Assembly: GCA_021792955.1 (NCBI GenBank)
Contig: JAJYTP010000005.1
Coordinates: forward strand, 1-61,346
Source of the DNA: an archaeon
GTDB lineage: Archaea; Thermoproteota; Nitrososphaeria; Conexivisphaerales; UBA164
Direction of reading: 5' to 3'
Length of the DNA stretch: 61,346 nt
Each line of letters begins with the position of its first letter. Positions within the stretch are counted from its first letter, which is position 1. Below are positions 1,285-58,322 of this stretch, piece by piece. The position numbers and the translations under genes were made by a program. The notes beneath the pieces were generated by a model. That model did not search any database, was not told the DNA's origin, and saw only the letters and a list, made by a program, of their open reading frames with translations.

Positions 1285-3336
1285 CTAAAGGAGGTGGAAC
1301 ATCAATATAAGTGGGACGAACAGAACCGATATCGTGATTATCACCTTTATCAAAGGATTAACAGAAGGACCCGCGGTGTCCTTTGTAGCATCACCAACTG
1401 TGTCCCCAACAACTGAAGCTTTATGTGCTTCGGAGCCCTTTCCACCAAAATTACCCTTTTCAATGTACTTTTTTGCATTGTCCCATGCAGCCCCTCCAGT
1501 GGTCATCCAGATGGCTACGGGAAAGCCGGTTATGATCGCTCCGAACATATAACCGCTGAGAGCAAGCGGGCCCAAGATAAAGCCAACCAGGAGAGGTCCG
1601 CCGGTGGCGATGATCGCTGGTAAAGCAAGCTGTTTGAGCGCAACCTTCGTAGTAATATCAACGCATGCCGCATAGTCAGGTTTAGCTTTACCTTCCATTA
1701 TACCCTTTATCTCCCTGAACTGACGCCTTATTTCCTCTACCACACCATATGCCGCTACCCCCACCGCGTTCAGCAGGTAAGACGTGAAAAGGAATGGAAC
1801 CATCGCGCCTATAAAAAGACCCGCAACTACGAGCGGGTTAAAAAGGAGAAGGCCATTTACTACCGAGCTCGGCATTTCTACATCGAACACTACAAAAAGG
1901 GACAATGCAGCCAAAGCGGCTGAAGCGATGGCGTATGCCTTTGTTGTAGCCTTTGTGATATTGCCCACAGCGTCCAGCGGATCAGTGGCTTGGGCTCTTA
2001 TCTTTTCGTCAAGGTTCGCCATTTCAGCTATGCCTCCTGCGTTGTCGGTTATCGGACCAAAGGTATCAATGGATACTACCATGCCAGCGAGGGACATCAT
2101 AGCTGTAGCCGCTATAGCTATGCCGTAGATGCCTATATAGAAGCTGCCGGAGCTGATATCATACAGGTTCACCCCATTGCTCAAGAATACACCAAGTATT
2201 GCTGTAACTATAACCAGCACCGGGACTATGGTGGCCTTGTGCCCATTGGCCAGCCCAGAGATGATATTCGTTCCGGCGCCCGTCTCCGACTTCTTTGCGA
2301 TATCCCTGACCGGATTGAATTGATATGAAGTAAAGAACTCTGCAAATATGTACATCATAACCATGACCGCGATTCCAATAACTGATGAAACTAAAAGGCC
2401 CAAAGCTCCGGCCATTACATATCTGATAACCAGATAATATCCGATTATCGAGACCACGGCCGTAACCGCCAAGCCCTTGTAAAATGCCCCCATTATCCAC
2501 CCTGATGTTAGCTTGACAAATGGAATCCCTACAATGGTGGTTATGATAGCTATACCGCCTATCAGAAGAGGTAGCTGAATGCCTGCGTTGCCATAAACTG
2601 AAAAGACAGAAGGCAATAGCTTTCCAAGCAACATAGCCGATACAAGGGTAACCGCATATGTTTCAAATAGGTCAGCACCCATGCCAGCGCAATCACCGAC
2701 ATTGTCGCCTACATTGTCGGCTATGACCCCAGGATTTCTGGGATCATCCTCAGGTATTCCTACCTCCACTTTTCCAACCATATCGGCGCCTACATCGGCT
2801 CCCTTTGTGAATATCCCTCCACCCACCCTAACCATGAGGCTTACCAGCGAAGCGCCGAACATGTAACCAACCATCAGAAGGGGGTTTCCGAACAGCCAAT
2901 AGAGGCCGCTTATGCCGAACAACGCTATACCGACCACGAACATTCCCATGACCGTACCTCCCCTGAAGGCTAGGTTGAAGGCCGGCTTTATGCCGCCTTT
3001 CATGGCCTCAGCCGTGGTTCTTACATTAGCCTTGACTGATGTCAGTATGCCCACATACCCTGCCAGCGCAGAACTAATTACTCCAACAATGAAGCTGACG
3101 GCCTGCGTCCACCCGACGCTTAGCGCTATCAAAACGGCTAGCACAGCAGCTACCACTGTTATAGTCCTCAGCTCGCGGTTGAGAAAGGCTTCCGCCCCCT
3201 CCCTGATATGAGAAGCTATATCCTTCATGGCCGACGTGCCCTCGTCCTTCCGACCTATAAGCAACGACTGAACGAAGGCAAAAACTATGCCGACCAATCC
3301 CAGTACCAACACCAGGATGGTATATAGATCGTCCAT
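1285..3336 (-). CDS. hppA: K+-independent membrane-bound proton-translocating pyrophosphatase
   Basis: Integral membrane pump that couples PPi hydrolysis to ion export. The 683 residues with about 16 membrane segments match the family. The substrate-binding loop (about 176-226) contains FTKGADVGADMVGK, DDPRNP and DNVGDNVGDCAG. The ion-specificity motif is GNITKATTK: K462 and T465 occupy the positions that are Ala in K+-dependent enzymes, so it belongs to the K+-independent, H+-pumping class (known for the family). A TATA-like box near 3367 fits a near-leaderless start. A phosphatase follows in the same operon. It could power the membrane with PPi made by biosynthesis, and shares the PPi pool with the PPi-type phosphofructokinase at 38976. 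Confidence 0.96.
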   Translation of the reverse strand: MDDLYTILVLVLGLVGIVFAFVQSLLIGRKDEGTSAMKDIASHIREGAEAFLNRELRTITVVAAVLAVLIALSVGWTQAVSFIVGVISSALAGYVGILTSVKANVRTTAEAMKGGIKPAFNLAFRGGTVMGMFVVGIALFGISGLYWLFGNPLLMVGYMFGASLVSLMVRVGGGIFTKGADVGADMVGKVEVGIPEDDPRNPGVIADNVGDNVGDCAGMGADLFETYAVTLVSAMLLGKLLPSVFSVYGNAGIQLPLLIGGIAIITTIVGIPFVKLTSGWIMGAFYKGLAVTAVVSIIGYYLVIRYVMAGALGLLVSSVIGIAVMVMMYIFAEFFTSYQFNPVRDIAKKSETGAGTNIISGLANGHKATIVPVLVIVTAILGVFLSNGVNLYDISSGSFYIGIYGIAIAATAMMSLAGMVVSIDTFGPITDNAGGIAEMANLDEKIRAQATDPLDAVGNITKATTKAYAIASAALAALSLFVVFDVEMPSSVVNGLLLFNPLVVAGLFIGAMVPFLFTSYLLNAVGVAAYGVVEEIRRQFREIKGIMEGKAKPDYAACVDITTKVALKQLALPAIIATGGPLLVGFILGPLALSGYMFGAIITGFPVAIWMTTGGAAWDNAKKYIEKGNFGGKGSEAHKASVVGDTVGDATKDTAGPSVNPLIKVIITISVLFVPLILMFHLL

Positions 3337-9185: not shown

Positions 9186-10181
9186 CTATAAAAGGGCCAC
9201 CTCTTCAGCCAGTTTAATGCCCTTGATCATATTACTGAGCTTTGAAAAAGCTATATCCCTGGATCTGGTGCGTAATCCGCAGTCAGGGTTGACCACTATT
9301 TGAGACGCGCCCTTAAGAACCTTTATAGCATATAAGATCCTGTCCCTGATCAGTTCCGGTGGTTCGATAAAATCTGTATGAACATCTATCACCCCTAGGC
9401 CTAGCTCCTTCCCAGAGCCATATTCCCTAAACATTTCCAATGCCCTATATCCGCGTCTCATTTCACTGGACACTCCTAATTCTGTTGAATCCCTGTTTGC
9501 AAATTCTAAAGCAAAGTGAGAAGCGTGTATGGATTGCAATCTCGGCATCAGCGATGTATATTCGTCGCCACTATAGCAGATGTGAACGGTAACCTTGGAA
9601 TTTATGCCCCTTACGGCGGCATTAAAGCCTTCCACAAAAAGGTCCATTTCATCAGGATGAGCAGTGGCCGCTGGTTCATCTACTTGGAGCACCGGGGCTC
9701 CCATGGCTTCTAGATCGCCGAGTACAGAATTGACCACCTTCGAAAGTGCAAGCAGGAACAGGCTCCTGTCCCGATAATGCTCATCATACGACCAGTCCAT
9801 AAATGTATATGGGCCTGTAACCGGGATCTTTGGTATCCTTTTAGTGTTCGCCTTTACAAATGCGAATTCGTCTTTATGGTAGTTCCTCAGGTACTTTACT
9901 TCATCAACACATCTAGCCTTCCGATAATACTTATTATCCCAGGACCTGATCCTGTCTGCAAATATGAATCCACCAATCTCCCTTATTGGTTGTTCATACA
10001 TTTCTATCCTCCTAGCTTCACCATCATATACGTAATCAAGGCCGATATCCTCTAGACGCCTCAAGTTGATGTAGGATGCGTCATCCTTGGCCTTCTCCTT
10101 CTCCTCAACGTTCTCGCTTTTTAGAGAAGCAAGCAGCCAGGTAGGTTTCTTAAGGCTGCCGATCTCCTGTGATTTAATCAT
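9186..10181 (-). CDS. metE: Methionine synthase, MetE C-terminal (core catalytic) protein
   Basis: Transfers a methyl group to homocysteine to make methionine. Zinc and thiol ligands of the cobalamin-independent family are visible: H200 and C202 in VHICYS, E226 in ALEFANRD, and C301 in NPDCGLRTRS. At 331 residues only the catalytic barrel is present, as in archaeal core MetE proteins. Its start overlaps the end of a MetE N-terminal-like gene by eight bases. Whether the methyl donor is a folate, tetrahydromethanopterin or a corrinoid protein cannot be seen; folate-independent core enzymes are known in archaea. Confidence 0.9.
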   Translation of the reverse strand: MIKSQEIGSLKKPTWLLASLKSENVEEKEKAKDDASYINLRRLEDIGLDYVYDGEARRIEMYEQPIREIGGFIFADRIRSWDNKYYRKARCVDEVKYLRNYHKDEFAFVKANTKRIPKIPVTGPYTFMDWSYDEHYRDRSLFLLALSKVVNSVLGDLEAMGAPVLQVDEPAATAHPDEMDLFVEGFNAAVRGINSKVTVHICYSGDEYTSLMPRLQSIHASHFALEFANRDSTELGVSSEMRRGYRALEMFREYGSGKELGLGVIDVHTDFIEPPELIRDRILYAIKVLKGASQIVVNPDCGLRTRSRDIAFSKLSNMIKGIKLAEEVALL

Positions 10182-11142
10182 TGTTGATCCTCCTCATGGC
10201 TTTTCTAAGCAGGTCAAGTTTTTTAATTGCGAACTTGTAGGGGATATATTCTAGATCGACATTGTTTGTGACGTATGCTCTAGGTGGATTGATGGAACCG
10301 AGGATGGCTTTAACACGCTCCGGGATGTTTTCCTCCAGTACAGTGCTGTACCCATTAACTAGTCCTAGCGCTAGTTCCTTATTATCCATCCTCCTAAGCG
10401 GCTGGCTTCCATTTATCATGTCAAACCCTAGCCCATCAACTGGCAGTTCATTGAGCAATTCGACATCTTTTACTGGTTTGAAATATATGTGCAGGATCAC
10501 CTTTTTGATAAATGCCCTTTTTATACTGGATATAGCTTCAGCTACGCGGTCGAAATGCTTCTTTAGGTCGATAAAACCATATGCGGGGCACTTGAGGACC
10601 AGTGTTTCAAACCCGGCCCTATTTAGGCCTCTGGCCTGCTTCGAAAGCAATTCACCCATAGCTGCAATGACCAGGGAAACATCACCATAGTGTTCATCCT
10701 TGCTAAGGATGGCAAATGTCAGCGGGTCCGGCAGAGAAGCCATTCTCTTATCTTCGGGTTTATAGAGGCCAAGATGAAGGCTTCGGGCTGAAACACCCTC
10801 CTTGGCGTCTATATCGTCTTCCAACAGTGGTACCCGGTAAAAGGTATTCGTCTCGAAAAACCTATTAATACCGTCTGGTTTGATCCCATTGGAGTTCACG
10901 GTTATTGGTCTGAACATATCATCCCAACTAAGCAATGGGTCCTGAATATAAGTTAATTCGGCCTCCCTTTGTGAATCAAAAAGGACCCTGCTTTCCTCTT
11001 CAAAATCTGGGGGGGCATACGTTCTCTTTCTGGTTATTTCTATGAGCTTTTCAGATCTCGGATATATTCCAAATATGTAACTCCCTACCATATCAATCAT
11101 CCCAAGATTATCCCTAAAAAACTTTAGCCGATAGCATCTCAT
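10174..11142 (-). CDS. MetE N-terminal-like protein, partner of the core methionine synthase
   Basis: A 322-residue protein resembling the N-terminal barrel of cobalamin-independent methionine synthase: the opening MVGSYIFGIYPRS and EEESRVLFDSQREAELTYIQDPLLSWDD are MetE-like, but the zinc-binding HxC and distal Cys are absent. It overlaps the catalytic gene by eight bases, consistent with a two-subunit enzyme. A TATA-like element near 11177 lies about 35 bases from the ATG and may also serve the divergent helicase operon. Its exact role, scaffold or methyl-donor binding, is not known to me. Confidence 0.7.
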   Translation of the reverse strand: MRCYRLKFFRDNLGMIDMVGSYIFGIYPRSEKLIEITRKRTYAPPDFEEESRVLFDSQREAELTYIQDPLLSWDDMFRPITVNSNGIKPDGINRFFETNTFYRVPLLEDDIDAKEGVSARSLHLGLYKPEDKRMASLPDPLTFAILSKDEHYGDVSLVIAAMGELLSKQARGLNRAGFETLVLKCPAYGFIDLKKHFDRVAEAISSIKRAFIKKVILHIYFKPVKDVELLNELPVDGLGFDMINGSQPLRRMDNKELALGLVNGYSTVLEENIPERVKAILGSINPPRAYVTNNVDLEYIPYKFAIKKLDLLRKAMRRINND

Positions 11143-18686: not shown

Positions 18687-19988
18687 TTACGCTATCCCCA
18701 ATATGCTAAGGTTTGGGTTTCCCTTCTCCTTCAGCAGGACGCCACGGGCATCGAAAATCAGTGGATCGGACCCGCTGAGCTTCAGGATCTGAGCTACGGT
18801 AAGGTCCCGGTAGACCGAGTGATCGGTTGCTATGATGATCCCATCCGCCCCCTTCAATGATTCACCTAAATCACCGATAAGGTTCACCGGGCGCGTAGGT
18901 TTCCTAACGTAGGGGTCATGGACCCTTACGCTTATCCCGAGCTTCTCTAGCCTATCTACAATGCTGTATGTGGGAGAAGCCCTGTCGTCATCTATGTCGC
19001 CCCTAAAGGCTAGACCGAGTATAGTGATATGTTTCACATTCCTTCTTCTTTTTATGAATAGCATGAGAAGCTTGTTAACTACGTGCCTTGGCATTAATTC
19101 GTTGAGCTCCCTAGCTTCTTCAATGATCTCTGCGGGTTGCTCATGACACTTTGCGGCGCGCATTATAAAATATGGATATACCGGTATGCAGTTTCCCCCT
19201 ACCCCAGCTCCTGGTCTGTGAAGGTGTGAAAATGGCTGTGAGTTGGCTGTATCCATTGCTTCCCAGAAGTCGATTCCGGCCTTTTCGCATATTAGCGCAA
19301 GTTCGTTTGCCAGTGCAATATTTACATCCCTATATACTCCTTCCATCAGTTTTTCCATTTCTGCAGTTTCGAGGGATGATATCTTCAGCACACCCTTGTT
19401 AACTATCCTTTCATAGAATTTTACTGCGGCTACAAGGCTTTTTGGTCCAACGCCCGATACGACCTTGGGATAATTTTCTTCGAGATCCTGTAAACCCCTT
19501 CCTTCGAACAGCCTTTCAGGACTGTAGGAAAGCCAGAAGTCTTCTTCGGCCTTAAGCCCTGATGCGGCTTCCAGCAGAGGCATAATGACCTTCCGAGTTG
19601 TGCCTAACGGAACGCTAGATTCAATGGATACAAGGTCCTCCTTTTGCAGGCCACCGCCTATCGCCTGTGCCGCTGATTCTAGGCTTTTGTATGAAGGCTC
19701 ATTATGGGTTAAATAAACTGGTACGGTAACGACCTTGTACTTTGATTCCTTTGAAGCGCTGTTTCCGTCGACCGTGGCTTTGAACCTTTTTTCATTAACT
19801 GCCTTATTCAGAACTGAGTCTATGTTGGGTTCGTTGGGAAAGGTGGGCTCACCACGCGACAGTCCTTCCACCTTATCTGGGTCTACGTCCACCCCGATAA
19901 CCGTATACCCGTTCCTAAGCAAGGAAGCCGAAATAATGGACCCGATCCGGCCCATGCCGTAAACCGCAACGGTGTCAGCCCTTTCCAT
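18687..19988 (-). CDS. Nucleotide-sugar dehydrogenase (UDP-ManNAc/GDP-mannose dehydrogenase type)
   Basis: NAD-dependent oxidation of a nucleotide sugar to the uronic acid. The N-terminal Rossmann motif is VYGMGRIGS (9-17). The active-site loop PGAGVGGNCIPVYPYF resembles UDP-N-acetylmannosaminuronate dehydrogenases more than UDP-glucose dehydrogenases, with the cysteine as catalytic nucleophile. The 433 residues cover the full three-domain enzyme. It probably supplies precursors for surface glycans or protein glycosylation. It converges on the aminotransferase. Confidence 0.88.
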   Translation of the reverse strand: MERADTVAVYGMGRIGSIISASLLRNGYTVIGVDVDPDKVEGLSRGEPTFPNEPNIDSVLNKAVNEKRFKATVDGNSASKESKYKVVTVPVYLTHNEPSYKSLESAAQAIGGGLQKEDLVSIESSVPLGTTRKVIMPLLEAASGLKAEEDFWLSYSPERLFEGRGLQDLEENYPKVVSGVGPKSLVAAVKFYERIVNKGVLKISSLETAEMEKLMEGVYRDVNIALANELALICEKAGIDFWEAMDTANSQPFSHLHRPGAGVGGNCIPVYPYFIMRAAKCHEQPAEIIEEARELNELMPRHVVNKLLMLFIKRRRNVKHITILGLAFRGDIDDDRASPTYSIVDRLEKLGISVRVHDPYVRKPTRPVNLIGDLGESLKGADGIIIATDHSVYRDLTVAQILKLSGSDPLIFDARGVLLKEKGNPNLSILGIA

Positions 19989-20109: not shown

Positions 20110-21240
20110 ATGGCTAAGGGCATAAAGGTAGGATTGCTGGGAGTGGGCAACTGTGCGTCGGCCATAGTTCAGGGAGTTCATTACTATATGAGCAAAAAGA
20201 AGAGCGGGGAAGTAAATGATGTACCAGGTGTAATGAGCAGGGATATAGGAGGATATGACGTTACCGACATCGAGTTTTCAACGGCCTTTGATATTTCGTC
20301 ACACAAGGTAGGTAAGGATCTAAGTGAAGCCATTTACGCTAGGCCTAACCTCACAAGGCTACTTACAAGTGTCCCCTTAATAGGAGTTAAGGTCCAAAAA
20401 GGAGCCGTACTGGATGGAGTTGCTGACCACATGAGAAGCGTTTTCAATCCTGTGAGCGATGGTAACCCACCGCCTTCTGTGGATGATGTAGTTGAAAATC
20501 TCAAACGGACTCATACGGAGATCTTGCTCAATACGTTGCCCGTTGGTAGCGAGAAGGCGACTAGGTTTTATGCAGATGCGGCCGCAAAGGCTGGCGTAGG
20601 TTTCATAAATGGTATTCCTGTATTCATAGCCAGTGATCCTACAGGGTCATGGCCGTCCATCTTTGAGAAGGCTGGGGTTCCACTTATGGGCGATGACGTA
20701 AAGGGCCAGGTTGGGGCAACCATAACACACAGGTCCCTAGCGCGGCTGTTCCACATGAGGGGCGTAAAAATAGATGAAACGTATCAGGTCAATATAGGCG
20801 GCAACACTGACTTCCTGAACATGACGTACGAGGAAAGGTTACACAGCAAGCGTATAAGCAAGACGGAAGCGGTCACCAGCCTACTTCCCTATGGAAAGGA
20901 GATGCAGGATGAAGGGAAGATAAGGATTGGCCCAAGCGATTACGTCCCATTTCTTGAAAACAATAAGGTCTGTTATATCTACCTTAAGGGAAGAAGCTTT
21001 GCCGACTACCCCCTTACAATGAACCTAAAGCTATCTGTCGATGACAAATCGATGTTTGCAGGGGCTATGATAGACGCGATCAGGATAATGAAACTCGCCA
21101 TAAATGAGGGTATCAAGGGGGTTCTGGTGAAGCCATCAGCCTTCTTTTTCAAACACCCGCCTCTGCAGGCAAAGGACGACGAAACCGCTATGAAGTGGGT
21201 AAAGGACTGGATAGGGAACCCTAAGCAGGTGGGCGGCTGA
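20110..21240 (+). CDS. ino1: Myo-inositol-1-phosphate synthase
   Basis: Converts glucose 6-phosphate to inositol 1-phosphate with NAD, the first step to archaeal inositol phospholipids or inositol solutes. Recognised by the NAD-binding GLLGVGNCASAIVQG, the central LPVGSEKATRFYADAA, and VNIGGNTDFLNM followed by basic residues. The 376 residues match archaeal enzymes. A TATA-like box at about 20080-20090 implies a leaderless ATG. Its last 20 bases overlap the end of the convergent glycosyltransferase. Confidence 0.93.
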   Translation: MAKGIKVGLLGVGNCASAIVQGVHYYMSKKKSGEVNDVPGVMSRDIGGYDVTDIEFSTAFDISSHKVGKDLSEAIYARPNLTRLLTSVPLIGVKVQKGAVLDGVADHMRSVFNPVSDGNPPPSVDDVVENLKRTHTEILLNTLPVGSEKATRFYADAAAKAGVGFINGIPVFIASDPTGSWPSIFEKAGVPLMGDDVKGQVGATITHRSLARLFHMRGVKIDETYQVNIGGNTDFLNMTYEERLHSKRISKTEAVTSLLPYGKEMQDEGKIRIGPSDYVPFLENNKVCYIYLKGRSFADYPLTMNLKLSVDDKSMFAGAMIDAIRIMKLAINEGIKGVLVKPSAFFFKHPPLQAKDDETAMKWVKDWIGNPKQVGG

Positions 21241-29310: not shown

Positions 29311-29946
29311 ATGAAAATGAGCACCCTGATGAAAAGGCTCCGCCTAGAGGATAAGAGGTTCATAACTTCGTCCGAACTGAAGTCCTACTGCGCGTCCATG
29401 AAGCTGGACTACGACACTACGGTCAGGTACTTTGAATCCAGAAGGGAGATCATAAGGATCTTCAGGGGGGTGTTCTACGTCAGGTCCCTCGACGAAGTGA
29501 AGCTTGGGCGGGCCGGACGTAACCACCTGGAGCTCGTCGCACGCGGACTGCAGATAAAGGGGGTGAAGAAATGGTACTTCGGACTGCACACGGCGCTCAA
29601 ACTGAACAACATGACCCACGAACACTATACTGTGGATGAGGTGGTCACAGATAGCCTCTTTAGGGCAAAGCCCATGACCATCTCCGGCCATAAGTTCAGG
29701 TTCATCAAGCTCTCGCCAGCCCTTTTCGACTTCGGGATCATAGAGAAGGACGGTCTCAGGTTCTCCGACCCAGAGAAGACCATCCTTGATTTCATATACG
29801 TCTGGAGGTACAATGGCATACCCGAGGAGAGAATAGTGGGTGACCTTTCCGACTGGACTGGGATTGTCTCCTGGGCCACCATGGCAAGGTACGCAAGAAA
29901 ATATCCGGCCACCGTCCTCAAGACCGTAAAGGAGGCATCGGAATGA
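29311..29946 (+). CDS. abiEi: AbiEi-like antitoxin/transcriptional regulator
   Basis: Probable antitoxin of a type IV toxin-antitoxin pair. An N-terminal winged helix-turn-helix (about 10-60; FITSSELKSYCASM, IIRIFRGVFYVRSL) is followed by the AbiEi-type domain with FGLHTALKLNNM and the hallmark FSDPEKTILDFIY. The 211 residues match the family. The toxin gene begins inside its stop codon (ATGA), so the two are translated together. It probably represses its own promoter. Confidence 0.85.
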   Translation: MKMSTLMKRLRLEDKRFITSSELKSYCASMKLDYDTTVRYFESRREIIRIFRGVFYVRSLDEVKLGRAGRNHLELVARGLQIKGVKKWYFGLHTALKLNNMTHEHYTVDEVVTDSLFRAKPMTISGHKFRFIKLSPALFDFGIIEKDGLRFSDPEKTILDFIYVWRYNGIPEERIVGDLSDWTGIVSWATMARYARKYPATVLKTVKEASE

Positions 29947-30902
29947 GGGCTGACTTTGCACAGGCGGTTGCCGATGGGTTGAACATCGGACGTGCGGACC
30001 TTGTGGAGAGGGATATCATCATACACCAACTGCTGCTTGATCTCTCAAGGGACAAGTTCTTTTCAGGAAACTTCACGTTCAAGGGTGGGACGTGCCTGAT
30101 CAAGTGCTATTATGGCTACATGAGGTTCTCAGAAGATGTGGACTTCACATGGAAGAAGCAGGACGCGTTCACTGGGCAGTCACAGAAGGCCATAAGGAGG
30201 GTCCTGTCGGGCGTCATCGACCGGGTGGGAGCGCTGCTAGAAGGGATAGCCCGCAGGAGGGAGATGGATTTTAAGTTCCTGAAGGGCGACAGGAGGTATG
30301 TAGAACTGGGCGGCAGCGACAGGATCTGCACCTTCAAGGTATGGTATGAATCGCAGGTTATGAAGCGCAGTAGCTTCATCAAGATCCAGATCAACTTCGT
30401 CGAGAGCCTATGCTTTGGGCTAAAGAATGGAGAGCTGAGCAGCCTTCTTTCTAAAGGGAATAGCGAACTCAGGGCGCTATTTCCGGAGGATTACGGAGAA
30501 TACCATCGGGCCATCAATTTCACTATCTATGACGTTCGTGAAATACTGAGCGAAAAGGTGCGCGCCATCCTAACGAGAAGGGGAACCAAGGCAAGGGACT
30601 TCTTGGACATCTATCTTATCTACAGAAGATATGGGATGAAGCCCCAGGATGTGGAACACTGTATAATGAACAAGGTCAGCTATTCTCTTAGGATGTACAT
30701 CAAGTACAGGGAGAACCTTGTTAAGAAGGCAAGACTGCTGGAAACCGGGGAGATGTTCAGCTGGGGTCAGGAGCGCAGCCTGCTCATAGGCGAAATAGAC
30801 GAAAGGGACTTCTATTCCTTTATCCGCGGGCTTTACGCATTTCTGATGCAGGTCACAAAGGCCTCCGGCGGCTTTGGCCCACAGGGTGGCAGCAATAAAT
30901 AG
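29943..30902 (+). CDS. abiEii: AbiEii-like nucleotidyltransferase toxin
   Basis: Polymerase-beta-type nucleotidyltransferase of the AbiEii/AbiGii family. The signature FKGGTCLIKCYYGYMRFSED runs from residue 46, followed by VDFT, with GG at 48-49 and the metal-binding Asp near 65-67. The later segment REILSEKVRAILTRRGTKARDFLDIYLI is also typical. Family members block growth, some by adding nucleotides to tRNA 3' ends. At 319 residues it looks intact and active. In a tRNA-adjacent island it could stabilise the element or act in phage defence. Confidence 0.88.
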   Translation: MRADFAQAVADGLNIGRADLVERDIIIHQLLLDLSRDKFFSGNFTFKGGTCLIKCYYGYMRFSEDVDFTWKKQDAFTGQSQKAIRRVLSGVIDRVGALLEGIARRREMDFKFLKGDRRYVELGGSDRICTFKVWYESQVMKRSSFIKIQINFVESLCFGLKNGELSSLLSKGNSELRALFPEDYGEYHRAINFTIYDVREILSEKVRAILTRRGTKARDFLDIYLIYRRYGMKPQDVEHCIMNKVSYSLRMYIKYRENLVKKARLLETGEMFSWGQERSLLIGEIDERDFYSFIRGLYAFLMQVTKASGGFGPQGGSNK

Positions 30903-38010: not shown

Positions 38011-38195
38011 GCATCCGTTAATTGAAAGATATACATACAATTTAACCGTTTCTCAAATAGCCAAGATATATCGGAAGTTAACCGTGATACATAATGACGT
38101 ATACGATGGTAGCTGACCGCGATCTGGCTTGATACTTTGAATATGCTAGAATTCCATCCTAAAAGCTTATAAAATCCTTAGATGTATGTTTTTTT

Positions 38196-38969
38196 ATGTC
38201 CTTTGAAAGGTTCATGGAACGTGGAAGGTCGATGATAATAGCATATGATCACGGCATCGAGCATGGCCCTACCGACTTCAATGATAGGAGCGCTGACCCT
38301 CAGTACATTATGGATATAGCAGAAGGTGGCCATTTCAATGGTATAGCGTTGCAGAAAGGAATAGCTGAGAAGTATTATGACGGCAGGATCCCGCTTATAC
38401 TGAAGCTAAATGGCAAGACCGAAATGGTAAAGGGAGACCCAATTTCTCGCCAGAATTGTTCCGTCGAATATGCGCTGAGCTTAAAAGCGAAGGCTGTAGG
38501 ATATACAATATACCCAGGTAGCGCATACGAAAGCCTCATGTTACGAACGTTCGGGCGTATACAGGAGGAGGCGAGGAAATACGACCTGGCCGTCGTTGCT
38601 TGGATATACCCTAGAGGAGAAGCCGTAAAGGACGATAGAACTAAGGAAGTAATTGCCTACGCCGCTAGGATAGGCCTTGAGCTGGGTGCGGACGCCGTAA
38701 AGATCAAGTACACTGGAAATCCAGAGACCTTTTCGTGGGCGGTCAGGGCGGCAGGAAAGGCAAAGGTTTTCATGTCGGGTGGCCCAAAGGCTCCAACCGA
38801 TGAAGCATTTCTAAAGCAGGTGGAGGGGGTTCTGCAGGCCGGAGGTACAGGTATAGCTGTTGGAAGGAACGTCTGGCAGCACAGTGAGCCCCTCAAAATG
38901 GCCAAGGCGTTGAGATCTCTGATCATAGAAAGAAGTGGACTTGCCGATGTGTTAGAGCAGCTAAAGTGA
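38196..38969 (+). CDS. fba: Archaeal class I fructose-bisphosphate aldolase (DhnA type)
   Basis: Cleaves fructose 1,6-bisphosphate to triose phosphates, or the reverse. Family marks: AYDHGIEHGP, LKLNGKT, WIYPRGEAVKD, AVKIKYTG with the Schiff-base lysine (K169 or K171) and MSGGPK. The 257 residues match archaeal DhnA-type enzymes. TATA-like CTTATAAAATC near 38169 gives a leaderless ATG. The phosphofructokinase follows after six bases, so these two steps of glycolysis are co-transcribed. Confidence 0.95.
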   Translation: MSFERFMERGRSMIIAYDHGIEHGPTDFNDRSADPQYIMDIAEGGHFNGIALQKGIAEKYYDGRIPLILKLNGKTEMVKGDPISRQNCSVEYALSLKAKAVGYTIYPGSAYESLMLRTFGRIQEEARKYDLAVVAWIYPRGEAVKDDRTKEVIAYAARIGLELGADAVKIKYTGNPETFSWAVRAAGKAKVFMSGGPKAPTDEAFLKQVEGVLQAGGTGIAVGRNVWQHSEPLKMAKALRSLIIERSGLADVLEQLK

Positions 38970-38975
38970 TTTCAT

Positions 38976-40004
38976 ATGAAGGTTGGATTATTAACGGGGG
39001 GTGGAGACTGCGCCGGGTTGAATTCTCTGATAAGGGCCGCAGTCAAGAGGATTGAGGAGTACGGCTGGGAGGCCGTAGGTATAAGGTACGGCTGGCGTGG
39101 GCTCCTCGACAATGACATGGTGGATCTATCATATGAATCTGTATCAGAAAAGATCGGAGTGGGCGGGACTATCCTGAAGACCTCTAGGACTAATCCCATT
39201 AAGTTAAAGGATGGCGCCGAAACGGTGATCAGAAACTTTAACCGGGCTGGGCTGTATGCCCTGCTTGCCATAGGTGGTGATGACACGTTGGGAGTAGCTT
39301 CCGCCTTATACAGGATGGGATTGAAGGTTGTGGGTGCCCCAAAAACCATAGATAACGACCTGTCGGCCACAGATATTACATTTGGCTTTGATTCAGCTGT
39401 GAACGAAGCCATGCATGCCTTGGACAACCTGAAGACCACCGGGGAGTCTCACGATAGGGTGATGGTAGCCGAGGTAATGGGAAGGGAAGCGGGTTGGATA
39501 GCCGCGCATGCGGGCATAGCTGCGGGCGCTCACATCGTTCTGGTCCCTGAAGAGCCATTCAGTGTTTCTGATGTGATATCGTCAGTCAAGGCTCGACATA
39601 ATAGAAACCTGCCATCAACTTTGATCGTAGTTGCTGAGGGCGCGCGTTTAAAGGACACGGGTAAATCGTTCTCTAAGGAAGGGCGCATTGATGCCTTTGA
39701 GCATCCCGAGCTGGGTGGCATAGGCCAGTTTCTCGCGAACGAAATAACGAGGGAGACCGGGTATGAAACAAGGGCAGTTACCCTCGGACATACGATAAGG
39801 GGTGGAACTCCCACCGCCTTTGATAGATACCTGGCTACAAGATTCGGTTTGGCCGCCGTTGATCTCATCAAGGAGGGCAAGTTTGGGATGATGGTCGCAA
39901 TCCATGGTACGGAAATAAAATCTGTCAAACTTGAGGACGCCGTTTCCAGTAAGAAGTTCATAGATAGAACCATGCTAGGGGTTCTGAAGGCGCTGTCGTA
40001 CTGA
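38976..40004 (+). CDS. pfp: 6-phosphofructokinase, PPi-type signature
   Basis: Phosphorylates fructose 6-phosphate. The family is clear from LLTGGGDCAGLN and PKTIDNDL. Two positions separate ATP from PPi users: here GGDDT (D103 rather than Gly) and PKTIDND (K123 rather than Gly), both PPi-type, so I infer PPi-dependent activity, reversible. The 342 residues fit the short archaeal/bacterial forms. It is co-transcribed with the aldolase, the arrangement described for the crenarchaeon Thermoproteus tenax. Confidence 0.9.
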   Translation: MKVGLLTGGGDCAGLNSLIRAAVKRIEEYGWEAVGIRYGWRGLLDNDMVDLSYESVSEKIGVGGTILKTSRTNPIKLKDGAETVIRNFNRAGLYALLAIGGDDTLGVASALYRMGLKVVGAPKTIDNDLSATDITFGFDSAVNEAMHALDNLKTTGESHDRVMVAEVMGREAGWIAAHAGIAAGAHIVLVPEEPFSVSDVISSVKARHNRNLPSTLIVVAEGARLKDTGKSFSKEGRIDAFEHPELGGIGQFLANEITRETGYETRAVTLGHTIRGGTPTAFDRYLATRFGLAAVDLIKEGKFGMMVAIHGTEIKSVKLEDAVSSKKFIDRTMLGVLKALSY

Positions 40005-42460: not shown

Positions 42461-44161
42461 CTAAGATTCCTTACCGGTTTGTTGTTGTGAAACGGCGCTT
42501 GATGAATCGACCCGTCCTGATTCGAATAGCTCCTTTGTATCGTCAGCAATGTATCCTTTGAGCAGCCCTCCTTTAAGCTCTGGCTGATATTTTGGCAAAA
42601 CCCATGCCTTCATTAGGATCAGGTAGATTACACCGGCTATCAATATGGCGGATATCCAAGAATTCTGGAATACCCATGACTGTCCCGGATATAGCGAACT
42701 TATTGATATCGGTAGATATGAACTGGGTGGGAAAAGCAATATCATGCTTATAGCGAAAGCGATGACCGCGGCCGGGTTGACGCCTCTTAGGTACCTGAAC
42801 CTTCCTTTGCTATAGAAGCAGTCTAGGAGCTCGAACTTGAATCTCCTTACCACAGCGTAGTCAAAGATTATCACCCCCTCGACCCCTCCCAGCAGTGCAC
42901 CATACGTCAGGAGCCATCCTTCGACATAGCTGAAAGCATTAAAGTAGTATGTCCAGGACTGCAGGAGCGCGGCGATGACCACGACTATTAATACGCCCAT
43001 GAACCAGCTGAGCTTCTTGGGATACAGGTTGCTGAAGTCATACCCAGGTCCCACCGTATCTGCATAGATGTTGACCACAATCACGCCCAGAAGTAGCAGC
43101 AGCAATGCAGTATATGCAAGAGGTGCGCTCTTAATCACTAACACTGAAAGCACTATCGGATCCCATATTGGAGACTTGAATATGACATATGACGCTCCAG
43201 TAGTAACCAGGGCAAATGCGCCTATAGCTGTCATAAGCAGGGGCATAGGCAGCTGGCCCATGGTCTGCGCGTATTGACTTTTCGCATATCTACTGTAGTC
43301 TGGCATGCTCAGCGCCATCGTAGCCCAGAAGGCGACGTTCGCGTTGATCAACCCTATAAGGGCGTACCAGAAAGCTGCTCCTGACACACTGGTTGGTATA
43401 TCCAGTATAGGTGTCCAATGCCAGCTGGCCATTCCCATTACGCTGAAGAACAATATCCCGAAGCCTACAAATGCTATGAAAGGGACCGTCCAACTTATCA
43501 TTTTGAGCACCTTCTGTCCGGTCTTGGGTGGAGAAACGTACAATATGGCCAGCCTTATCAATATCGTGACGATAAAGACAGTCCAAAATAGAAGTGGATT
43601 TATTGTAGCTACAAGGAAGGGCAGGTTTGCAGGGCTTGCCAACGCCAAGGCCAATAATCTAGATATCTGGCCAGTTGCTATTACATACATGCCTCCAACT
43701 GCCTCTGATATGATCCACGTGTCGATACCCCACCAGCCAGCTCCTATCACCCCTCGAAGGATTGAGGGAACCCAGTTGCCGTAAATTCCCCATCTGCTAC
43801 GCGTCAAGGGTGTTTCCGGTATACCATATCTGGCTCCGCCGTGACTGATAATCAGGATTGGTACAAGCACTATCAGGTTTCCAACGAGCACAGCCATCAA
43901 TCCCCAGAACCAGTTCAGGCCAAAGGAATAACCTATTGAAACGAGTGACCATGATTCAACCTCCATAGCCATACCGAACCATATAGCAAAGAAGGTCCAT
44001 GATCCCCAGTTCCTATTCTTAACAGCAGTGGGATGGAAATCTTCGTTCCAGAGGTACTTTTCCTGAGGAAAGGTCTTTTCAAGCTCAAGGTAACCTTTAT
44101 CCGGGTAAAATTTTGTGTCTCTAAGTCTGTCAACTTCATTGGCTTTTTGATCAGTTGCCAA
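42461..44161 (-). CDS. NCS1-family nucleobase/hydantoin transporter
   Basis: Membrane carrier with about 12 helices, 566 residues. The cytoplasmic N-terminus has LWNEDFHPT, the family's NEDL.PT-like motif, and helix regions with GARYGIPETPLTRSRWGIYG and GWWGIDTW are typical NCS1. Substrates of the family are purines, pyrimidines, hydantoins, allantoin or thiamine-like compounds. It is divergent from a molybdenum hydroxylase large subunit, which makes a purine-like substrate attractive. Confidence 0.9.
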   Translation of the reverse strand: MATDQKANEVDRLRDTKFYPDKGYLELEKTFPQEKYLWNEDFHPTAVKNRNWGSWTFFAIWFGMAMEVESWSLVSIGYSFGLNWFWGLMAVLVGNLIVLVPILIISHGGARYGIPETPLTRSRWGIYGNWVPSILRGVIGAGWWGIDTWIISEAVGGMYVIATGQISRLLALALASPANLPFLVATINPLLFWTVFIVTILIRLAILYVSPPKTGQKVLKMISWTVPFIAFVGFGILFFSVMGMASWHWTPILDIPTSVSGAAFWYALIGLINANVAFWATMALSMPDYSRYAKSQYAQTMGQLPMPLLMTAIGAFALVTTGASYVIFKSPIWDPIVLSVLVIKSAPLAYTALLLLLLGVIVVNIYADTVGPGYDFSNLYPKKLSWFMGVLIVVVIAALLQSWTYYFNAFSYVEGWLLTYGALLGGVEGVIIFDYAVVRRFKFELLDCFYSKGRFRYLRGVNPAAVIAFAISMILLFPPSSYLPISISSLYPGQSWVFQNSWISAILIAGVIYLILMKAWVLPKYQPELKGGLLKGYIADDTKELFESGRVDSSSAVSQQQTGKES

Positions 44162-44244
44162 GTTATTCTCGTTAAGAAATTAATATCAAGTGCTTTATAA
44201 GTATTATTATTTGCCCATGGAAGGCGTTGAATATATTGATACTA

Positions 44245-44279
44245 ATATTGTAAGAATTATACATATAAACTTACAATAT
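44245..44279. repeat. Perfect 10-bp inverted repeat between the transporter and hydroxylase genes
   Basis: ATATTGTAAG (44245-44254) and CTTACAATAT (44270-44279) are separated by 15 bases in the 377-base divergent gap. TATA-like boxes for the transporter (about 44188-44196) and the hydroxylase (about 44503-44513) lie on either side. Candidate regulator site or small hairpin. The rest of the gap shows nothing else that I can name. Confidence 0.5.
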
Positions 44280-44538
44280 CAAATTGTTATATAATGAATT
44301 GAAGAGTGGAGAGTTTATGGGCCTTCGGTATCTTGAATAATGTGCAAGGAGCTAGGTTCAATTGAATGTATTAACACTATATTCTTTCGTTTGAATGCGC
44401 ATGATTCATTGTAAAACTCGCTTTGATACCTGACTCTTTTGGGATATTTGTACCTTGAAGATCGCGGGTTTTCCGCCCAATGGTGCGACTGTTACATTTT
44501 TCTATAAACTTTAATATGGGCACACATAACAGTAGCCC

Positions 44539-46824
44539 ATGAGTGAAGGACAGTTAATTTATTCAGCTATAGGCTCATCATCTCAAAGGGTGGATATACG
44601 CGAAAAGGTTGATGGTTCTCTCAAGTACTTCACAGATATGAAAATGGATGGCATGTTGTACGGGGTGGTCTTTAGGAGTACAGTTTCTCATGCTCGTATA
44701 AGATCAATGGACGTAACAAAAGCTATATCCATGCCGGGGATAAGGGCTGTACTCACAAGCCGCGATATTAAAGGGATGAACGCCTACGGCGTTATAGTGC
44801 CTGACGCCCCAGTGCTGGCATACGATAAGGTAAGGTTTTACGGTGAGCCACTGGCCCTTATAGCTGGAGATACTTTAGAGCAGGCCGAGGCGGCCAAGGA
44901 CGGCATAAAGGTCGACTATGAGCCTCTGCCGGTGGTAAGGAACATAGATGAAGCACTAAAGAACGATGCACCATTGATACATAATAACGGCAACATTGCT
45001 AGGTCAATGAAGGTCGAGCGTGGAGACCTTGCGCGAGGCTTTAAGGATTCTTATCTGGTGCTTGATAGGGATTACAGAACGCACATGCAGAAGCACATGT
45101 TTCTTGAGACTGAGGCAGGACTGGGGTACCTAGATGAAAAGGGAGTGATAAATATCTTTGTATCGGGTCAAGGTGCCCATAGTTATAAAGGGCAGATAAC
45201 TCGAGCCTTAGAAATACCACCAGATAAGCTGAGGATAGTAAATTATCCTGAGGGAGGGGCATTCGGCGGTAAGGATGACGTTACGATTCAGATCCTCCTG
45301 ACTTTATTGGTAATGAAAACTAGGAAGCCAGTAAAGTTGGTATTGACCAGGGAGGAATCTGGTGCCGGAGGGTATCACAGGCATGCGTCGCTGATTCATC
45401 TTAAGACCGGAGTAAGCAAGGATGGACGGTTTATGGCGAATAAGGCGCATATATTATTGGATACTGGCGCATACGTTAGCTTTGGCCCCAGTGTGCTGGA
45501 TACAGCAATGGAGGTGATAAACGGGAAGTACAGGATCCCGAACATCTCTGTTGAAGGAACCCTCGTGTACACTAACAATGGATTTTCATCAGCATTTAGG
45601 GGGTTTGGAGCTCCACAGGGGAACTTCGCTATTGAAAACATGGTGGACGAACTGGCATACGAGCTAAAGATGGACCCCATTGATTTCAGGCTTCTTAACC
45701 TGCTTCAAGAAGGTGAAATTAATTCCTTCGGAAATCCGGAAAGGGATACCATGGGCGCTCATGTCGCCCTGACTGAAGCAAAAGGATCTCGTCTGTGGAA
45801 GATTTCAAAAAAAGGTAGTCTGCCGTGGATTAAAGTAGGTGTAGGGGTTTCATTTGGAGTTAAGGGGGTAGGATATGGCCCAGTAAAGGATGTATCATAT
45901 GCTGCGGTTGAGGTTATTCCCAGCGGACTGGTAAAGGCCTTTTTTTCCAACGCCGATTATGGTCAAGGGATAAATACAGGTCATCTACAAATTGTAGCCC
46001 AAAAACTAGGCATTCCATTCGAAAATCTAAGAACAGTAAATGCCGATACGGCGGAGTGCCCGGACACGGGCTCATCGGACGCATCAAGGAGTACATTCAC
46101 CGGCGGTAATGCCCTACTCAGCGCATGTGACCAGTTAATAGAGGCCATGAAGCCGGAGGCAGCACGCATGATGAAGGTGCAACCGACGGAGATTTCCTAT
46201 GCGGATGGTAAATTCACTTTTAAAGAAGGGAGTGAGGTTAGCATATTTGATGTGGCATCTTTTATGGCCAAGGAGGGAAAAGGCACGAAGTTTATCGGGT
46301 CATTTGAAATGCCGCGAGTGGCGAAGCCCATAGAAGGAATGATAGAAGCACCTCGGTTCAGCAACGCCTATGGAGTCCTCATATCTCTGGTTGAAGTCAA
46401 TGAACTTACCGGACTAGTTAAGGCAAAGGCATTTGATTTCTATGCAGATATAGGGAAGGTAATCAATCCCCTTTTGGCGACATCACAATGTGAAAGCGGC
46501 CTTATTCAGGGTTTGGGTTTTGCCATAACGGAAGAACTTACCTATGATGTCGATGGAAAACCGCTCAACACAAATTACACGACATATATTGTCCCGTCAA
46601 CTACCGATATTCCTTCCATTGATGTCAGGTTTGTTGATGCAGTTGAAAAATATGGGCCTTACGGAGCAAAAGGGGTGGGGGAGATACCTATTGTGCCGGT
46701 TGCCTCGAGCATAACCAATGCGGTGCATGATGCAATAGGAATTAGATTTAGGGAGTTGCCTCTTTCCCCGCCAAAAGTGAGTTCCAGGATACAGCAAAAT
46801 AAAGGGATAAGCGTACTGGCCTGA
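44539..46824 (+). CDS. Molybdenum hydroxylase large subunit (xanthine dehydrogenase/CoxL family)
   Basis: Molybdopterin-binding subunit that hydroxylates purines, aldehydes or similar compounds. The N-terminal part (VDIREKVDGSLKYFTDM, YGEPLALIAGDT) and the molybdopterin part (GGAFGGKDD, SAFRGFGAPQGNFAIE, SSDASRSTFTGGNALL) are present. The catalytic Glu lies in AKGVGEIPIVP. At 761 residues it is complete. The usual partner genes for the 2Fe-2S and FAD subunits are not within the window, so it may pair with distant genes. The AYR-type loop diagnostic of CO dehydrogenase is not seen. Confidence 0.88.
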   Translation: MSEGQLIYSAIGSSSQRVDIREKVDGSLKYFTDMKMDGMLYGVVFRSTVSHARIRSMDVTKAISMPGIRAVLTSRDIKGMNAYGVIVPDAPVLAYDKVRFYGEPLALIAGDTLEQAEAAKDGIKVDYEPLPVVRNIDEALKNDAPLIHNNGNIARSMKVERGDLARGFKDSYLVLDRDYRTHMQKHMFLETEAGLGYLDEKGVINIFVSGQGAHSYKGQITRALEIPPDKLRIVNYPEGGAFGGKDDVTIQILLTLLVMKTRKPVKLVLTREESGAGGYHRHASLIHLKTGVSKDGRFMANKAHILLDTGAYVSFGPSVLDTAMEVINGKYRIPNISVEGTLVYTNNGFSSAFRGFGAPQGNFAIENMVDELAYELKMDPIDFRLLNLLQEGEINSFGNPERDTMGAHVALTEAKGSRLWKISKKGSLPWIKVGVGVSFGVKGVGYGPVKDVSYAAVEVIPSGLVKAFFSNADYGQGINTGHLQIVAQKLGIPFENLRTVNADTAECPDTGSSDASRSTFTGGNALLSACDQLIEAMKPEAARMMKVQPTEISYADGKFTFKEGSEVSIFDVASFMAKEGKGTKFIGSFEMPRVAKPIEGMIEAPRFSNAYGVLISLVEVNELTGLVKAKAFDFYADIGKVINPLLATSQCESGLIQGLGFAITEELTYDVDGKPLNTNYTTYIVPSTTDIPSIDVRFVDAVEKYGPYGAKGVGEIPIVPVASSITNAVHDAIGIRFRELPLSPPKVSSRIQQNKGISVLA

Positions 46825-55593: not shown

Positions 55594-57363
55594 ATGTGGG
55601 TCAAAGGATATGAACCGGCTGTTATAGGGGAATTGATCGACACCGCCATGGGAAGGAGAAAGGCGTCCCTCGTAATTAAAAATGCAAAGCTGGTGAATGT
55701 GTTAACATCTGAAATAGAAAAGGGGATAGACGTAGCCTTTCAGGGTAATAGGATAGCTCTTGTAGGAAATGCTAATGATTCCATTGGAGATAATACGAGG
55801 GTAATAGAGGCCGATGGCCTCTACCTTTCACCCGGTTTCATCGATGGGCATATGCACATTGAATCCACCATGCTGACACCAGGCCAGTTCGCTAGGGCCG
55901 TACTGCCTATCGGTACCACTACCATCTTTGCTGATCCTCATGAAATAGAAAACGTAAGCGGTTTAACAGGTCTCCGCTATTTTCTCAAAGCCGCAAGCGT
56001 TTTGCCCATGAGGATTTATATGCTCGAAGCATCCTGTGTTCCGGCAAATCCGCCATTTGAAACAAATGGGGCGACTATTGGTGAAAAAGAGATCAGGAGC
56101 ACGATAGGACTTGATGGAGTAGCAGGCCTCGGCGAGGTGATGAACTATGAAGGGGTCATAAACTTGGACGGAAGGATGTTGGGTGAGATCACACAAACGC
56201 TGATAGGTGGGAAAGTTGTAGAAGGGCACGCCCCCCAGATAAGTGGGAAAGACCTTTCAGCTTATATTGCGGCTGGCGTCAGTACGGACCATGAGTGCTC
56301 CACCAAGGAAGAGGCTATGGAAAAGGTAAGGAGGGGCATGATGGTGTATGTCCGAGAGGGCTCATCCGAACTTAACCTGAAGGAAGTGATAAAGGCGATC
56401 ACCGAAGGAGGAATGGACAGCCGTAACTTTGCCCTATGTACTGATGACCGCGACCCTCCGTCCCTTATCGAACAGGGGCATATAAATTACGTAATAAAGA
56501 GAGCTATTGAGGAGGGACTGAACCCGATAACTGCTATCCAATTGGCCACCATCAATCCCGCAACTCATTATGGTGTTTCAAACCTGCTAGGGGCTATAGC
56601 TCCGTTCAGAATGGCTGACGCTGTGCTCTTTGAAGAAATAGCAGACCCGAGGCCCAAATATGTAATTGCTAATGGGATGATTGTAGCTGAGAATGAGGAG
56701 CTGACCGTGCAGATCAGACAGATAAGCCCGCCTCCTGGAGTTATAAATCCGGTTCATCTGAATCCCTTAGCCCGATCCGACTTCGAAGTGGCGATTAAGG
56801 GGGACTCGGCCAAAGCCAGGGTAATCGAGCTGATTAAGGACAGCATCATTACCCGTGGCATTATGGAAACCATCAATGGAGTTGGTGGGAAGGCTGTACT
56901 ACCGAAGGAAATTTCCAAGTTGGCGGTCTTTGAGCGACATGGAAAGGGGAACAATAGGGCGCTCGGCTTTGTCAAAGGATTCGGCCTAAAAGGAGGAGCC
57001 GTCGCATCAACCGTGGCCCATGATTCCCACAACCTGATGGTCCTTGGTAATGATGATGGAGATATGGCAGAGGCCGCAAATAACGTCATAAAGATGAACG
57101 GTGGAATTGCAATAGTCTATAAGGGGCGAGCGCTGGCTTCCTTGGAATTACCTATAGGCGGACTTATGTCTGATGAGAAGCTTGAGGTAGTGAATAGGAA
57201 GCTGGCTAAGGTTAACGAAGCCTGGAAACAACTCGGTTGCAATATTCCCACTCCGTCGATAACTATGTCCTTTCTGGCCTTGTCGGTCCTCCCAGCACTA
57301 AGGATAACCGATATGGGGTTGCTTGATACGGAAAAATTCAAATTTGTCCCATTAATTGAATAA
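55594..57363 (+). CDS. ade: Adenine deaminase
   Basis: Converts adenine to hypoxanthine and ammonia in purine salvage. Amidohydrolase core with FIDGHMHIESTM, ADPHEIENVSG, GEVMNYEGV, GHAP and CTDDRDPP, followed by the C-terminal domain typical of bacterial/archaeal adenine deaminases (HDSHNLMVLG). The 589 residues are full length. A TATA-like box near 55566 gives a leaderless ATG. A nucleoside phosphorylase gene converges on it. Confidence 0.95.
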   Translation: MWVKGYEPAVIGELIDTAMGRRKASLVIKNAKLVNVLTSEIEKGIDVAFQGNRIALVGNANDSIGDNTRVIEADGLYLSPGFIDGHMHIESTMLTPGQFARAVLPIGTTTIFADPHEIENVSGLTGLRYFLKAASVLPMRIYMLEASCVPANPPFETNGATIGEKEIRSTIGLDGVAGLGEVMNYEGVINLDGRMLGEITQTLIGGKVVEGHAPQISGKDLSAYIAAGVSTDHECSTKEEAMEKVRRGMMVYVREGSSELNLKEVIKAITEGGMDSRNFALCTDDRDPPSLIEQGHINYVIKRAIEEGLNPITAIQLATINPATHYGVSNLLGAIAPFRMADAVLFEEIADPRPKYVIANGMIVAENEELTVQIRQISPPPGVINPVHLNPLARSDFEVAIKGDSAKARVIELIKDSIITRGIMETINGVGGKAVLPKEISKLAVFERHGKGNNRALGFVKGFGLKGGAVASTVAHDSHNLMVLGNDDGDMAEAANNVIKMNGGIAIVYKGRALASLELPIGGLMSDEKLEVVNRKLAKVNEAWKQLGCNIPTPSITMSFLALSVLPALRITDMGLLDTEKFKFVPLIE

Positions 57364-57389
57364 GCGTTCAATCAATGGAGGATACGGCG

Positions 57390-58322
57390 CTAAAGGCTTC
57401 GTCTATAGAGGACCCTTATTGCGCCGGAGAGATCAAATCGGATCTCCGAGTTCCCATCTATGGCGAGGGCATCGAGTTGCATCTTTTTTGTCAGCGATTC
57501 AAGGGCAAGGGTAACGAGTTTCATTTCCGATTCTTCATCGACCTTAAATTGTATATCACCTGTCTCTAAATAGTATGGCGATACTATCAGCAGGGTGCTG
57601 GCAAAGGAAAGCCTCACCCCTGAACCTTGTATTGTTCTATTATAGAAATCTGTCAAGAGCGCCATCGGGCTCGATTCCATAGAAGCAGATATGGCCCCCA
57701 TCCTATCGTAAGCCCTGTGGCGCTCCTTAATATCTGCTGAAATTGATGATCTGGTTTCAGGGCTTTCCTCCGCGTAGAGCGTATCCTTGCATATGCCCGT
57801 GCCAAACCATATGCGTTCATCCAGCCCAAGATCGTGCGCTGTTTCAGCGATCATTAGGGTGGTTATAAGATCTGTTTTGGCGGGCCATTCTAAAGGTGCT
57901 ATCTTGGAACTGGTGCCATCCGAACGCACGACGCCGAGCTCCACCGCTATATCATTTACCGAAACCTTGGGGCTCCAGCTTGCTGCAGTTCCAGCCCTGA
58001 TAATTGTGGGCCGCCTAAAACGGGCGGTGTCAACATTTGATATTACTTCTGTATATGAAATCTCGGCCGAGCTTGGACCCATTCCACTGCAGAAAAGGGT
58101 TACGGGCGTCCCCTTGTACACACCATTGTACACTATTAGCCCCCTGTTGCTGCTGACCAGCTTGGCTTCCTCGATCAGTTCCTTTGCTGCGTCTATTCTC
58201 TCAGGGCTACCAGCAGTCAAGATATAGCCATTTAGTTCACCCTTCTTCGCCTTTACATGATATGATCTCCCACTTGTATCTCTGAATACATCAGGGAAAA
58301 GTCCGGATCTTGCCATTCCCAA
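57390..58322 (-). CDS. Nucleoside phosphorylase (PNP/UDP family)
   Basis: Splits nucleosides with phosphate into base and ribose 1-phosphate. The N-terminal YILTAGSPERIDAAKEL, phosphate-site CSGMGPSSAEI, and RAGTAASWSPKV are family marks; SMESSPMALL holds the Glu that contacts ribose. The 310 residues are slightly longer than typical. Uridine phosphorylase-like features are evident, but purine use is possible given the adenine deaminase next door. Confidence 0.88.
   Translation of the reverse strand: MGMARSGLFPDVFRDTSGRSYHVKAKKGELNGYILTAGSPERIDAAKELIEEAKLVSSNRGLIVYNGVYKGTPVTLFCSGMGPSSAEISYTEVISNVDTARFRRPTIIRAGTAASWSPKVSVNDIAVELGVVRSDGTSSKIAPLEWPAKTDLITTLMIAETAHDLGLDERIWFGTGICKDTLYAEESPETRSSISADIKERHRAYDRMGAISASMESSPMALLTDFYNRTIQGSGVRLSFASTLLIVSPYYLETGDIQFKVDEESEMKLVTLALESLTKKMQLDALAIDGNSEIRFDLSGAIRVLYRRSL

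Follow-up and report, generated by a model that had tools for sequence, protein, structure and literature searches.

The closest described system to the locus reported here is the pair of neighbouring genes for an aldolase and a pyrophosphate (PPi)-dependent phosphofructokinase (PFK) in Thermoproteus tenax, which we take to be the pair named fba-pfp. The same net conversion that such a pair would give, from triose phosphates to F6P, would be given by FBPA/P (PF01950), a single bifunctional enzyme unrelated to the pair, in which the phosphatase step is hydrolytic. FBPA/P has been described as turning triose phosphates into F6P in archaea and deep bacterial lineages (PMC12965863), and we found it in 328 of the 398 genomes of the phylum studied here. 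PFK has been described as lacking in two groups of non-ammonia-oxidising Thaumarchaeota (PMC10640624, PMC10773090), so that an aldolase-PFK pair in the class Nitrososphaeria would fill a known gap. In another study pfk and fba are listed in a figure legend on gene comparisons of Nitrososphaerales and Conexivisphaerales (PMC10833072), and the presence of pfk in those orders may already be on record there. Among the matches listed in a search of open-licence literature (titles and starts of abstracts) there was no report of FBPA/P being replaced by such a pair in archaea.

The gene pair and its likeness to T. tenax

The window, by which we mean the whole stretch of 61,346 nucleotides analysed here, comes from a genus of Conexivisphaerales that is known here from three incomplete MAGs. 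The features that concern us are:

38166-38175 (+): TATA-like sequence CTTATAAAAT, its centre 26 nt upstream of the aldolase ATG
38196-38969 (+): class I fructose-1,6-bisphosphate aldolase, T. tenax type, 257 aa (PF01791, PDB match, tree)
38970-38975 (+): 6-nt gap from aldolase to PFK
38976-40004 (+): short PFK-A with PPi-donor signature, 342 aa (PF00365, motifs)
39273-39287 (+): GGDDT motif, PFK residues 100-104 (alignment, motif rule GG(D/E)D(S/T))
39339-39359 (+): PKTIDND motif, PFK residues 122-128, with Lys123 and the catalytic Asp126 (sequence)
1285-3336 (-): membrane H+-pyrophosphatase (H+-PPase), proposed PPi sink (PF03030)

An earlier note on this DNA had placed an aldolase next to the PFK, and both reading frames are indeed found there; the range that it gave, 38196-40004, covers both genes, while the PFK by itself occupies 38976-40004. 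In 3/3 genomes of the genus the aldolase lies directly upstream of the PFK on the same strand, as in the fba-pfp arrangement, and in two congeners the two proteins are 97-99% identical to those of the window, with the genes in the same order and between the same neighbours. From the 6-nt gap and the shared strand we infer that aldolase and PFK form one operon and would be co-transcribed, and the TATA-like site would be consistent with an archaeal transcript that has almost no leader. The base composition of the pair does not point to a foreign origin (GC 0.50 and 0.52; GC3 0.52 and 0.56, compared with a GC3 range of 0.41-0.56 in 21 genes).

In the PDB the aldolase matches 1ojx, the class I FBP aldolase of T. 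tenax, best (2e-99, 335 bits), and the next different enzyme, the MJ0400 aldolase, reaches 144 bits. Two NCBIfam models match it below their cut-offs (NF040816 Fbpase1_Arch, 203.8 bits against 430; NF005556 ADH synthase, 216.8 against 241), and it is the aldolase tree that settles the T. tenax type. There it falls in a 17-row clade (100/100) together with the T. tenax-like rows and those of family f71, in a tree in which several long rows outside this clade were flagged and long branches meet. Its Lys169 aligns with Lys177, the Schiff-base lysine of the T. tenax enzyme.

That T. tenax has the same gene pair had also been claimed, and this is borne out by locus L063 of genome G105, where a 337-aa PFK with GGDDT follows an aldolase of 263 aa whose sequence fits the printed part of 1ojx. 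The T. tenax PFK has a published size of 337 (PMC12203962), and we regard G105 as T. tenax itself or a strain nearly identical to it. The two pairs are alike in gene order, close packing, aldolase type (61% identity) and donor motif. Unlike these features, the PFK is only 46% identical to that of the window, and the T. tenax-like genome retains FBPA/P.

Phosphoryl donor of the PFK

The PFK (PF00365, 329 bits) falls with its 342 aa within the range of about 320-350 aa of short PFK-A enzymes, and it is the only PFK-A match in the window genome and in each of the two congeners. The earlier note had read it as PPi-type by motif, and both motifs are present, GGDDT from residue 100 and PKTIDND from residue 122 onwards. 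In the stretch GGDDTLGV the form GG(D/E)D(S/T), given as the PPi signature of PFKs (PMC11609450), replaces GGDG, and the lysine of P(K)TIDxD is present. The predicted use of PPi by this enzyme is well supported by its motif. With TIGR02483 PFK_mixed it aligns over the whole profile and scores 421.1 bits, slightly less than the curated cut-off of 430.55.

It might be possible that the enzyme uses ATP or ADP in spite of this, which we consider very improbable. Such a donor would agree with NF002872, a model named 'ATP-dependent' and the sole NCBIfam model that the PFK passes. It would also agree with the ATP-dependent Streptomyces enzyme placed inside the short PPi cluster (PMC11609450) and with the statement that the lysine of PKTIDxD, and so PKTIDND by itself, is not diagnostic of PPi use (PMC12203962). 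However, Asp103 aligns with the G104 position of ATP-PFKs, so that GGDD would put an Asp into the site of the ATP alpha-phosphate, and at the G108 position the enzyme has Val, where ATP types have Gly and ADP types Ile.

Distribution and origin of the pair

A PPi-driven step of this kind had been called rare among archaea. In the phylum surveyed here this does not hold for the enzyme: when PPi-type PFKs were assigned by score (best match 1e-63 or better), they were found in 72 of the 397 other genomes, from 14 families, and in the 54 of these genomes in which the motif was read it was GG(D/E)DT throughout. A T. tenax-type aldolase adjoins the PFK in only nine of the 54 loci read, all nine in f14 and f26; no aldolase of this type was found beside the PFK in the other 45, five of which end at a contig edge. 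Hence in this phylum the gene pair is rare and the PFK type is not, being common in some families. We take family f26 to be Thermoproteales, and likewise f14, which holds G105. Within the class Nitrososphaeria the pair is present in 8/8 PFK carriers, namely 3/3 genomes of the genus and 5/5 of f71, a family of the same class (G417, G419, G421, G423, G425), and the PFK was found neither in eight genomes of the window's family that belong to other genera nor in nine order-mates (0/17). In a search of 76 genomes, in which all 40 from outside the class were PFK-A carriers, aldolases of at least 58% identity occurred only in the genus (3/3), f71 (5/5) and f14/f26 (9/9), the next best reaching 41%.

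Some genomes of the phylum carry further PFKs. In f6 (L024, L030, L049, L051) a GGDD-type PFK lies near a second PFK with GGNG and PATIDND on the opposite strand. In f26 (L068-L071) a second PFK combines GGDG with PKTIDND, that is, mixed ATP and PPi signatures, and these genomes additionally carry the T. tenax-type PFK.

The pair of f71 resembles that of the window in its sequences (PFK 63-68% and aldolase 72-76% identity), in gene order and in the lack of an intact FBPA/P. It differs in having no flanking genes in common within the stretches compared and in its PFK motif, PKTMDND. Unlike the window's genus, f71 has a second PFK of GGDG type (ATP-type motif) in 5/5 genomes, and pyruvate kinase, present in two of the three genomes of the genus (G398, G399), was not found in any of the five. 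A PPDK_N-domain protein is likewise present in two of the three genomes of the genus.

In the PFK tree, in which the long rows L175 and L055 were flagged, the window enzyme belongs to a 20-row clade (95/80) made up of the genus, f71, f35, f21, f10, f56 and f15. The unpaired PPi-type PFKs of f10, f15, f21, f35 and f56, of which 13 of 21 GGDD genomes were included in the tree, share this clade with the window, and FBPA/P was not found in these 21 genomes either; unlike the window, they have no T. tenax-type aldolase within the 1.5 kb or less covered on either side (0/21 loci, five of them cut off at contig ends). The T. tenax enzyme was considered as the nearest relative of the window PFK and rejected, since the best tree places the window PFK apart from the T. 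tenax branch and its identity is 46% to the T. tenax enzyme against 63-68% to f71. A clade uniting it with the T. tenax group was not rejected (p-AU 0.151), and we therefore do not claim that aldolase and PFK were paired independently.

The data suggest that the gene pair arrived by horizontal transfer. Its proteins are 63-76% identical to those of f71, and by its DNA ligase the genus falls into its own family, to which the identity is 58-60%, compared with 53% to f71. Judged from branch lengths, the ratio of genus-f71 distance to within-f71 distance is about 1.5 for the PFK, about 1.7 for the aldolase and 3.6 for DNA ligase, the latter being the one marker gene of this argument and its tree carrying a warning of meeting long branches (f71, genus). 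These ratios, together with the absence of the pair from the sister genera, lead us to favour transfer, and the pair would have moved between the genus and a lineage near f71. The neighbourhood of the DNA ligase (L248, 8900-10669, and neighbours) is wholly rearranged in the genus compared with the sister genera. In G398 there is a second DNA ligase match (50% identity), perhaps a contamination.

The missing FBPA/P

FBPA/P was found neither in the genus (0/3 genomes, 73-82% complete) nor in four f71 genomes of one genus (0/4, 77-95% complete). In the fifth f71 genome, G417, the copy is broken, with 10 in-frame stops in 369 codons and 60% identity to an intact homologue. Thus none of the eight pair-bearing genomes of the class, all of them incomplete MAGs, holds an intact FBPA/P. 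If misses were independent, the chance that completeness explains all of them is about 1% for the genus and about 0.01% for f71. Relatives mostly have the enzyme: it is present in 5/5 order-mates outside the family, in G003 (family f2) and in four of six genomes of sister genera. The two negative sister genomes are also without DNA ligase, which is a near neighbour of FBPA/P in three of the four sister genomes that have it (G400, G403, G404), and since this neighbour is missing too, the absence in these two genomes is likely an assembly gap.

Intact FBPA/P occurs in 0/20 genomes of the 20-row PFK clade compared with 23 of the 26 other rows from the phylum, and in f15 all ten GGDD carriers lack it, while G266, which has a PFK-A but not the GGDD type, has FBPA/P. 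In f14 and f26 FBPA/P is kept in 18/18 GGDD genomes, and overall 46 of the 72 GGDD genomes keep it. Loss must have other routes as well, because FBPA/P is also missing from 43 of the 325 genomes without a GGDD PFK, 19 of which have another PFK-A. A Fisher test over 397 genomes gave an odds ratio of 3.7 (p 2e-5), a value that ignores kinship and treats related lineages as independent, and which we do not take as proof.

That no intact FBPA/P was found in the genomes of the class that carry the pair matters for the question of which way flux would run. It might be possible that the operon is T. tenax-like and mainly catabolic, that FBPA/P was missed or another phosphatase makes F6P, and that the PPi-PFK does no more than save ATP during glycolysis. 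We rate this as doubtful, if by no means far-fetched. The T. tenax-like G105 holds pair and FBPA/P together; pyruvate kinase is found in G398 and G399; a ROK-type sugar kinase was seen by eye on contig L249; and an IMPase-family protein (PF00459, E 1e-19) is encoded in two of the three genomes of the genus (G000, contig C30, L249:2544-3473, and G398), as it is in four of five f71 genomes and in none of six from sister genera. However, FBPA/P is absent from all three and all four genomes and broken in the fifth f71 genome, and the IMPase-like protein scores far under the cut-off of the bifunctional FBPase/IMPase model (97 bits against 264). A search for class I FBPase gave no match above its cut-off in any of the eight genomes of the genus and f71, and the sub-threshold matches (G000, G398 and four f71 genomes) are the IMPase-like loci. 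Another FBPase, such as the IMPase-like protein or GlpX, may possibly make F6P in the genus, and this is the chief weakness of the case for replacement.

In G338, a 100% complete genome of the same class but of family f5, a class I FBPase domain passes the cut-off (C1:422465-422818), and there is neither FBPA/P nor PFK-A. This would be another replacement of FBPA/P in the class, and it suggests that the loss of FBPA/P is offset when it happens.

Other genes of the window

The H+-pumping pyrophosphatase reported for this DNA is indeed encoded in the window, about 35 kb from the pair (790 bits). It carries GNITKATTKA; a Lys in place of Ala in this type of motif marks potassium-independent enzymes. 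As a marker of the operon it was rejected, since 20 of the 21 genomes tested encode it, whether they have the pair or not. An inositol-phosphate synthase (20110-21240) and an enzyme of the UDP-glucose/GDP-mannose dehydrogenase family (18687-19988) draw on hexose phosphates, so that F6P must be made or imported.

Genes for purine use lie at 42461-46824 and 55594-58322 and include an NCS1-like transporter (by eye), a xanthine dehydrogenase-like molybdenum subunit, an adenine deaminase and a nucleoside phosphorylase. Two adjacent genes (9186-11142, -) match cobalamin-independent methionine synthase, one its catalytic and the other its N-terminal domain, as separate proteins. An AbiEii-type nucleotidyltransferase of a type IV toxin-antitoxin family is encoded at 29943-30902 (+), and a 211-aa reading frame upstream of it (29311-29946) may be its partner.

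Discussion

The reading that we think best, and to a modest degree probable, is that a reversible operon of aldolase and PPi-PFK replaces FBPA/P, with its PPi drained by the H+-PPase. The aldolase would interconvert GAP + DHAP and FBP, and the PPi-PFK would interconvert FBP + Pi and F6P + PPi, so that in the genus and in f71 the pair would have taken over two steps otherwise done by the bifunctional FBPA/P. With peptides or purines as growth substrates, flux through the pair would go towards F6P and release PPi, and hydrolysis of this PPi by the H+-PPase would conserve some of its energy in a proton gradient. With sugars the pair would run the opposite way, sparing ATP, and one PFK-A would serve both directions in the genus. 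In its full form the proposal would make the single PPi-PFK the main enzyme between F6P and FBP both ways, with FBPA/P displaced by the pair and PPi turned into a proton gradient through the H+-PPase; this version we put forward tentatively, as plausible though short of probable. The enzymes themselves are ordinary and of known kinds, and the replacement of FBPA/P is, on sequence data, unproven.

A different use of the pair might be a sedoheptulose route, in which the PFK would, additionally or mainly, phosphorylate S7P and the aldolase would cleave SBP, replacing transaldolase. Such a route would account for the tight pairing with the aldolase and is reported for the PPi-PFKs of clostridia and Entamoeba (PMC12203962), but it leaves the missing FBPA/P unexplained, and we regard it as quite improbable.

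If the replacement of FBPA/P by the reversible pair is true, the genomes described here would provide a concrete set for answering an open question on PPi-PFKs. In this lineage the pair may have replaced the sugar-building enzyme that most of its relatives use, and the loss of FBPA/P after the gain of the pair would then be a case, found in nature, of an irreversible step being exchanged for a reversible, PPi-driven one.
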